NCBI GenBank assembly: GCA_026126345.1
Contig: JAHCJH010000015.1
Span: 1 to 33,247 of the forward strand
Direction: 5' to 3'
Length of the DNA stretch: 33,247 bases
From: Phycisphaeraceae bacterium
GTDB lineage: Bacteria; Planctomycetota; Phycisphaerae; Phycisphaerales; UBA1924
The notes beneath the pieces are model-generated. The model was not told the DNA's origin and searched no databases. It saw only the letters and a program-made list of their open reading frames with translations. Below are positions 18,792 to 20,721 of the stretch, piece by piece; positions within the stretch are counted from its first letter, which is position 1, and the number at the start of each line of letters is the position of its first letter. The position numbers and the translations under genes were made by a program.

Positions 18792-19784
18792 TCACGGTTT
18801 CTGCGTGATCCGCAGCCGCACCCGCAATTCCCCGCCCTCGAACCGCACCCCGGCCGGCCCGCCCACGACCGCCGCCGCCACGCTCTCGATCCCCTTGGCC
18901 AGATCCTCAGACGTCAGCGTCACCACGGCCCGCGCCACCCCCGGGTTCTGCCGCAGCACGTCGATCGCCTCCCGCGGCCCGCTGGCCACCACGTTCCGGA
19001 TCACCGGCGTCTCCGCCTCCACCGTCCATCGCCCCCCCGCCCCCGGCGGCAGCGCCACGTACACCGGCACCTCGCTCAGGATGATCGTCTCCCGGCGCGC
19101 CCGGAGCTTCAGCGTCACCTGCACCGTCTCGGGGTTCATCGTCACCGGCGTCACGCCGACCAGCGACTCCGGCGGGCTGATCCGCGCCTGCACCACCTGC
19201 GCCGTCTCATCCGACAGCCGCGACAGCACCTCGGTGCTCACCACCGCCGGCGCGAACGTCCCCTCGGTGATCCGCCCCGCCGCGGCCGCGGGCAACTGCA
19301 CCTCCACCGAAGTCACCAGGAACGTCGGCTCGCCTTCCAGGGCCGCCCCCGGGGCCTGCAGGCGCAGCGGCACCGTCCGCTTGACCAGTTCCTCCACCAC
19401 GATGCGGCACGACGGCGGCTCCACGCCCGCGATGGTCACGCCCAGCCGGCGCAAGTCCGGGTGGTCCCGCAACGCCTCGCGCAGGTCCACCACGTGCTCG
19501 CCGCTGGTCCCCGGCACGCCGCCGATCCCCGGCGTCAGCCGAAGGGTCGACGACAGCACGCGCGACGCCGCGTCGATCGACGCGTTCGACCCACGCAGGT
19601 TCACCCGCACCGACCCCTTCCACTGCGGCTCGACCACGCGGGTGGTCAGGTCCGCCTTCTCGCCCGTGGCCACGTCGATGCGGGCGTCCACGGTGCTGGC
19701 CGTCAGGCTCTCGCGCTCGGCCCACGTCCAGATCAGGACCGTGATCAGCGACACCAGCCCGTAGGTCTTGAACTTCTGCCACAT
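18792..19784 (-). CDS. cdaR: CdaR-like YbbR-domain regulator of diadenylate cyclase
   Basis: The 330-residue protein has one N-terminal membrane helix (about 7-24) and an exported part built of repeated YbbR-like beta domains (VDARIDVATGEKADL..., VPLRLQAPGA..., VQVTLKLRARRETI...). In Firmicutes CdaR sits next to CdaA in the membrane and tunes its cyclic di-AMP output. Family assignment rests on topology, length and position: the start lies 19 bp after the cdaA stop, the classic cdaA-cdaR order. No glmM follows, unlike the usual three-gene operon. Confidence 0.78.
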   Translation of the reverse strand: MWQKFKTYGLVSLITVLIWTWAERESLTASTVDARIDVATGEKADLTTRVVEPQWKGSVRVNLRGSNASIDAASRVLSSTLRLTPGIGGVPGTSGEHVVDLREALRDHPDLRRLGVTIAGVEPPSCRIVVEELVKRTVPLRLQAPGAALEGEPTFLVTSVEVQLPAAAAGRITEGTFAPAVVSTEVLSRLSDETAQVVQARISPPESLVGVTPVTMNPETVQVTLKLRARRETIILSEVPVYVALPPGAGGRWTVEAETPVIRNVVASGPREAIDVLRQNPGVARAVVTLTSEDLAKGIESVAAAVVGGPAGVRFEGGELRVRLRITQKP

Positions 19785-19803: not shown

Positions 19804-20721
19804 TCAGGCGTGCCCCATGTCGGCGTGGTCGGGCGCGGGCGTGCCCGCCTCGGGCTCGCGCGCCGCTTCGCCGCCCACCAGTTTCCGCACCAGGCCGGGG
19901 TTCAACTTGAGCACCAGCAGGCCGCGCAGCTCCTCGCTGTTGAGACCGCGCGTCAGCCGCCCCCGCTCGGCCAGCGAGATGGTGCCGGTTTCTTCGCTCA
20001 CGACGACGACGATGGCGTCGCTCTCCTTGGTCACGCCCACCGCCGCGCGGTGGCGCGAGCCCAGCGTGGCGTCGGGCATGTCCTCGGCGTCGGCCAGCGG
20101 CAGCTGAGCCCCGGCCACCTTGATCAGGTCATGCTTGATCACGACCGCCAGGTCGTGCAGCGCGCTGCCGGGGAAGAAGATCGTCTGCAGCAGACGCGAC
20201 GTGACCCGTGCATCCATCGGCGTGCCCCCTTCGGCCAGGTCCTTCAGCGGGGTCTGCCGCTCCACGACGATCAGCGCGCCGAACTTGGCCTTGCTCAGGT
20301 ACCCCGCCGCGTCAACCAGCGCGTCGACGACCTCCGTCTCCGGGCGCACCGCGCGCCGGAACAGGCTCCCCTCGCCGATGCGCGTCAGCCCCCGGCGCAG
20401 CTCCGGCTGGAAGATCACCACCAGCGCGATCGCCACGATCCCCAGCAGATTGTCGTACAGGAACGACAGCCGCTGGAAGTTCTCCCGCTGGCCCAGGATC
20501 CGGATCAGCAGCGTGCCGACCACCAGCACGATCAGCAGGCCCTTGAGGCCCCCGGCGGCGCGCGTGCCCTCCACGAACCGGAAGATCACCAGCACCACCA
20601 CCCAGATCACCGTCAGTTCGATCAGCACCTGCCAGACGGGGTACGCCGCCATCCGGTCGATCAGCTGCGTGATGCGGGGCAGGAATTCCAACAGCGCGTC
20701 CTTCGCTTGTCTCGCCCCCAC
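19804..20721 (-). CDS. cdaA: Membrane diadenylate cyclase, CdaA type, with altered DGA motif
   Basis: The 305-residue protein has three membrane helices (about 32-50, 59-77, 90-105), then IFQPELRRGL and a DisA_N (DAC) domain. CdaA makes cyclic di-AMP from two ATP. The RHR motif is intact (GSRHRAAVG, RHR at 223-225), as is VSEETGTIS. At the DGA motif, however, the sequence reads HDLAVVI (190-192 D-L-A), with Leu replacing the Gly that is normally near-invariant. The Asp is kept. Whether the enzyme is fully active is open. The GTG start at 20721 is the first in frame; the upstream G-rich run gives no clear Shine-Dalgarno. A -35/-10 pair lies 63-91 bases upstream. Confidence 0.85.
   Translation of the reverse strand: MGARQAKDALLEFLPRITQLIDRMAAYPVWQVLIELTVIWVVVLVIFRFVEGTRAAGGLKGLLIVLVVGTLLIRILGQRENFQRLSFLYDNLLGIVAIALVVIFQPELRRGLTRIGEGSLFRRAVRPETEVVDALVDAAGYLSKAKFGALIVVERQTPLKDLAEGGTPMDARVTSRLLQTIFFPGSALHDLAVVIKHDLIKVAGAQLPLADAEDMPDATLGSRHRAAVGVTKESDAIVVVVSEETGTISLAERGRLTRGLNSEELRGLLVLKLNPGLVRKLVGGEAAREPEAGTPAPDHADMGHA

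Follow-up and report, generated by a model that had tools for sequence, protein, structure and literature searches.

The window, that is, the whole 33,247-nucleotide stretch of DNA that was analyzed, carries on its minus strand a cdaA gene (19804..20721) encoding a 305-aa, membrane-anchored CdaA-type diadenylate cyclase, with a hydrophobic N-terminal part at approximately residues 29 to 104 and a diadenylate cyclase (DAC) domain at approximately residues 137 to 256. Directly downstream of cdaA on the same strand (18792..19784) lies the gene for a 330-aa protein with an N-terminal membrane helix, the probable CdaR-like partner. This product had no Pfam, NCBIfam, or PDB sequence match and no tie to YbbR; the protein that follows cdaA at another locus, L031, is 27% identical to it (E value of 1e-20). 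Based on its position beside cdaA and on this counterpart, we infer that it is a CdaR/YbbR-type partner, apparently a fast-evolving one. Also nearby are the genes for a large protein that looks secreted and carries divergent InlB B-repeats (PF18998; 16355-18487, minus strand) and for a small protein with a stand-alone Nfu/NifU N-terminal domain (PF08712; 20855-21130, plus strand), the divergent neighbor of cdaA.

A variant CdaA

The family assignment of the cdaA product is consistent across sequence and fold. The Pfam DAC model (PF02457) matches residues 137 to 255 at 131 bits against a cut-off of 27, and the NCBIfam CdaA equivalog model (TIGR00159) matches at 202.2 bits against a cut-off of 188.8. 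The TIGR00159 match spans residues 29 to 272 and includes the hydrophobic N-terminal stretch, so the predicted order is that of CdaA, with the putative membrane part on the N-terminal side of the DAC domain. The protein falls under the cut-offs for CdaS (136.1 versus 225), CdaM (96.3 versus 225), DisA (45.8 versus 201), and DacZ (23.3 versus 430). A domain-only AlphaFold (AF2) model of residues 113 to 273, built from a three-sequence alignment, reached a pLDDT of 81.3, and its predicted fold is that of a DAC domain: the best PDB match is Bacillus subtilis CdaA (8ogk; TM score of 0.87), and all 50 PDB matches listed are CdaA, DacA, or DacM structures. This model served for fold and strand limits. 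A full-length model, also from three sequences, was poor (pLDDT of 52) and was set aside. The input for structure prediction was limited to the window protein and loci from the related-locus search. This CdaA is the sole DAC protein detected in the window's genome, a fragmented draft of 253 contigs that is 86.5% complete.

What distinguishes the protein is its active-site motif. On the minus strand, reading down from 20152, the codons GAC CTG GCG (20144..20152) specify Asp190-Leu191-Ala192 where Asp-Gly-Ala (DGA) is expected, with the Asp retained; LHDGAV stands at this position in the solved CdaA chains of the alignment. Leu191 corresponds to Gly172 of Listeria CdaA and Gly177 of Staphylococcus aureus DacA. 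The GxRHRxA motif is present as GSRHRAA (residues 221 to 227) and the His that precedes DGA as H189, and S242, E243, and E244 are likewise kept. The initial annotation, which had described a CdaA-type DAC with a replaced Gly and an intact RHR, is thus upheld by the Pfam and NCBIfam matches and by the codon reading. Its statement that this Gly lies close to the bound nucleotide also agrees with published work on S. aureus DacA, where Gly177 is in contact with the ribose (PMC6368335). Two features go beyond that annotation. The residue before RHR is Ser rather than the usual Thr (Listeria Thr202) in Ser222-Arg223-His224-Arg225 (20047..20058, minus strand), and the adenine-stacking position, Tyr187 in Listeria and Tyr192 in S. 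aureus (PMC10167629, PMC6368335), is occupied by Gln206 (20104..20106, minus strand). Because the curated CdaA model, TIGR00159, recognizes the protein without the DGA glycine, we file it as a variant CdaA, one that departs from the family at DGA and agrees with it in the GxRHRxA motif, the His before DGA, the predicted domain order, and the modeled fold.

Leu or Met across the class

The DLA motif had been presented as a peculiarity of one protein, and an alignment of CdaA from other Phycisphaerae had been proposed as a check. That alignment shows no such peculiarity: at the DGA glycine, every class ortholog compared has Leu (64 of 124) or Met (60 of 124), and the next residue is Ala, Gly, or in a single case Ser, for a class motif of D-[LM]-[AGS]. 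Outside the class but within the phylum, all 69 CdaAs compared have Gly (DGA in 60, DGG in 9). In the same family and order, 58 of the 60 genomes searched had a DAC protein, and every main CdaA among them has Leu or Met. Class sampling comprised 150 genomes searched and more than 60 further loci read, from approximately 25 families. A contig search with the window protein found only two loci, each 50% identical and from a Phycisphaerales metagenome-assembled genome (MAG), and the wider survey was made by genome search instead. Since these two named relatives are Phycisphaerales MAGs, the class is taken to be Phycisphaerae.

A sequencing or assembly error at this codon, which the draft state of the genome (253 contigs) might invite one to suspect, has a negligible probability and can be dismissed, given that independent genomes across the class carry Leu or Met at the same codon. 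The few extra DAC proteins of class genomes keep DGA wherever the motif is readable, which places the change in the CdaA ortholog rather than in the codon use of these genomes.

Pattern scans drew the same boundary. The Gly-type pattern F-x-P-x3-L-H-D-G-[AG] gave 7 matches in 397 class genomes, none of them CdaA by hidden Markov model (HMM), and the reversed-pattern control matched in 3 genomes. Conversely, a Leu/Met/Ile/Phe-type pattern scanned over 392 genomes of the phylum gave, among the matches tested by HMM, CdaA proteins inside the class only. Outside the class, the matches L211 to L221 were not CdaA by HMM, and in the rest the matched letters were unlike the CdaA context. Beyond Planctomycetota, the coverage was that of PDB sequences and, by overall identity, of plasmid matches; the plasmid matches were less than 60% identical, and those listed come from other phyla. 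Viral contigs held no relative.

Three positions of the nucleotide pocket

In a CdaA tree built with columns 191, 206, and 222 masked, the Leu/Met proteins form one side of a single branch (SH-aLRT of 100). When the Leu/Met and Gly groups were compared over 241 usable columns, the most diagnostic column was 191, followed by 206 and then 222, which correspond to Gly172, Tyr187, and Thr202 in Listeria and to Gly177, Tyr192, and Thr207 in S. aureus. In the structure of S. aureus DacA with ApCpp, Asp176 and Gly177 touch the ribose, Thr207 touches the phosphates, and Tyr192 stacks on the adenine (PMC6368335). The top three diagnostic columns thus coincide with three of these four contacts. For columns drawn at random, all three would fall within those four residues with a probability of about 2e-6, or of about 2e-4 if the pocket is defined generously as 15 residues; these figures are a rough guide, since three founder changes on one stem branch amount to few independent events and column 191 was itself used to define both groups.

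Position 206 is Gln in 115, Glu in 6, and Pro in 3 of the 124 class orthologs, and in the Gly-type relatives it is mostly Leu, Ile, Phe, or Val. The Thr before RHR has mostly become Ser. Around these changes the catalytic apparatus is preserved: among the published CdaA active-site residues used for comparison (PMC7288161), D171, G201, R203, H204, and E223 are invariant in all 124 class CdaAs, S222 and E224 are nearly so (123/124 and 120/124, respectively), the L131 site is Leu or Ile, and the L188 site has either Leu or Phe, as it does in the outgroup.

The comparison with known enzymes follows the same lines. Firmicutes CdaA/DacA proteins (Listeria 4RV7 and 8C4O, B. subtilis 8OGK, and S. aureus 6GYX) share the domain order, the DAC fold, approximately 40% identity in the aligned domain, and D171, G201, R203, H204, S222, E223, and E224, but where they have Gly172, Tyr187, and Thr202 the class has Leu or Met, Gln, and mostly Ser. 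The CdaAs of other Planctomycetota classes, the nearest sampled relatives outside the class, have the same architecture, but they keep the Gly and have mostly Leu, Ile, Phe, or Val at the stacking position.

Within the class, Leu and Met have exchanged at least 10 times, and a third residue (Gly, Ala, Ile, or Val) was never seen. Because the exchanges are this frequent and lead to no other residue, site 191 looks selected for a long, flexible aliphatic side chain. Might the substitution instead be a neutral founder event, with the enzyme active and Leu or Met merely tolerated? Such an account would agree with an active enzyme and would compete with the packing mechanism proposed below. It draws on the single origin of the Leu/Met clade and on DacA of Mycobacterium tuberculosis, in which a G73A change of the DGA glycine leaves ATP binding and c-di-AMP synthesis in place and an RHR-to-AAA change does not (PMC3328451), although G73A is a laboratory Ala mutant of a DisA-type enzyme and the class change is a natural Leu or Met in CdaA. 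Neutrality sits poorly with a site that toggles only between Leu and Met across the diversity of the class and with a position 206 that is nearly fixed as Gln here and variable elsewhere; we consider it unlikely, if still deserving some weight.

Signs of c-di-AMP synthesis and a proposed mechanism

Genomic context indicates that the Leu/Met-type CdaA very probably still makes c-di-AMP. The c-di-AMP riboswitch RF00379 scored above the gathering threshold in 14 of 61 class genomes, each with one listed DAC protein of the Leu/Met type. The window's own family added 5 of 41 genomes, again with a single DAC apiece (DLA in four, DMG in one). The two lists do not overlap, giving 19 genomes in which the only detected DAC is of the Leu/Met type, some of them drafts from which a second DAC could be missing. 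K+ uptake is a classic output of c-di-AMP. Downstream of the riboswitch we found TrkH (L258, L271, L272, and L273, with three DLA genomes among the TrkH cases), Kup (L260), and APC-type permeases (L255, L256, L259, L264, L266, and L270); L257 is the one exception among the loci inspected, with no K+ transporter or related permease identified behind the riboswitch. Of 37 genomes from the family and order, 35 encode a PgpH-type phosphodiesterase, which also exceeds the Pfam cut-off in 37 of 61 class genomes. The active G73A mutant of M. tuberculosis DacA points the same way, although this published tolerance of a replaced Gly concerns Ala in a DisA-type enzyme and not Leu in CdaA. Neither riboswitch nor PgpH was detected in the window's own genome, which may reflect its incompleteness. 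The papers searched included none on cyclic di-AMP in Phycisphaera and no assay of a Leu/Met-type enzyme.

These observations bear on whether the enzyme could be catalytically dead or very weak and retained for a structural or sensing role. In favor of this, it has lost a contact glycine considered invariant, and the stacking Tyr, which in Listeria (Tyr187) has been called crucial for catalysis (PMC10167629), is absent. Yet in many Gly-type relatives this position, Gln in the class, is Leu, Ile, or Val, and DisA and CdaS are also without this Tyr. Moreover, the 124 proteins show little or no variation at the catalytic residues, this CdaA is the only DAC in most genomes, and riboswitches and PgpH phosphodiesterases are retained, all of which makes a dead or very weak enzyme very improbable. 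The initial annotation had proposed that Leu could change activity. Loss of activity is unlikely, given the conserved catalytic residues and the presence of riboswitches where no second DAC was detected; kinetics, affinity, or regulation may have shifted, which the co-fixed change at the adenine-stacking position makes more plausible. That annotation had also named many active homologs with the same Leu as counterevidence; the homologs exist, and their activity is what the genomic context leads us to predict.

Could the pocket have changed its choice of nucleotide or its product, for example, to another nucleotide or a hybrid cyclic dinucleotide? All three of the top diagnostic positions are in contact with the nucleotide, and at the base-stacking position Gln brings in a hydrogen-bonding side chain. 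Adenine, however, is recognized via the main chain of Leu188 (PMC11066881, PMC10167629), which the substitutions need not disturb, and for that reason we think base choice is unchanged. An altered product is further opposed by the c-di-AMP-class riboswitches that precede K+ transporters where a Leu/Met CdaA is the one DAC detected, and we regard a change of nucleotide or product as quite improbable.

In total, the evidence favors, with a probability of roughly 0.85, a functional, lineage-specific form of the CdaA diadenylate cyclase whose ATP pocket was rebuilt once on the stem of the class. We propose that on the stem of this Phycisphaerae-like class of Planctomycetota the DGA glycine would have been replaced, one time, by Leu or Met; on the same stem, Gln would have come to occupy the adenine-stacking position, and Ser, in most cases, the place of the Thr before RHR. 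The acid residues and those that bind phosphate and metal would have been retained throughout, and the enzyme would still condense two ATP molecules into c-di-AMP, which would in turn control K+ uptake. The domain model has strands at 192 to 196 and 199 to 206 with a two-residue turn between them, and in this geometry residue 191 would face 204, and residues 191 and 206 would be placed diagonally on one face of the hairpin. A register with Listeria 172 opposite 187 was ruled out by the model strands and the turn. We speculate, at somewhat less than even odds, that the aliphatic side chain of Leu/Met191 takes over from residue 206 the packing on ribose or adenine. Such packing would keep ATP binding and change affinity or product release. 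That the Leu/Met-Gln-Ser pocket defines a distinct functional subtype, one that prefers other nucleotides, needs other metals, or releases its product differently, seems doubtful.

The family itself is already known; this lineage has an apparently remodeled nucleotide pocket of its own, in an enzyme predicted to synthesize c-di-AMP. A whole bacterial class has replaced both the DGA glycine and the adenine-stacking residue. Reviews describe DGA as common to all DAC classes, and the motif serves to recognize these enzymes; annotation based on it would wrongly label the class CdaAs inactive. CdaA inhibitor design depends on the adenine-stacking residue (PMC11066881, PMC10167629). The class also offers a natural experiment that separates what is essential (Asp, Arg-His, Ser, and Glu) from the parts of the pocket that can be rebuilt, and a compact set of substitutions for probing how CdaA holds ATP and releases its product.

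The survey also turned up other DAC variants. Some class genomes also encode DAC proteins of other types that retain DGA (L062, L063, L064, L065, and L121 to L124); in L062 and L063, RHR is replaced by RHT or RHA, and the C-terminal end of the DAC domain is joined to an apparent CdaR-like extension. A single CdaA copy from a different class of the phylum (L184, genome G307), additional to the 69 compared above, has DQA for DGA and Thr at the stacking position. Finally, three class CdaAs, all of group f22 (L116, L117, and L129), have RHL for RHR.
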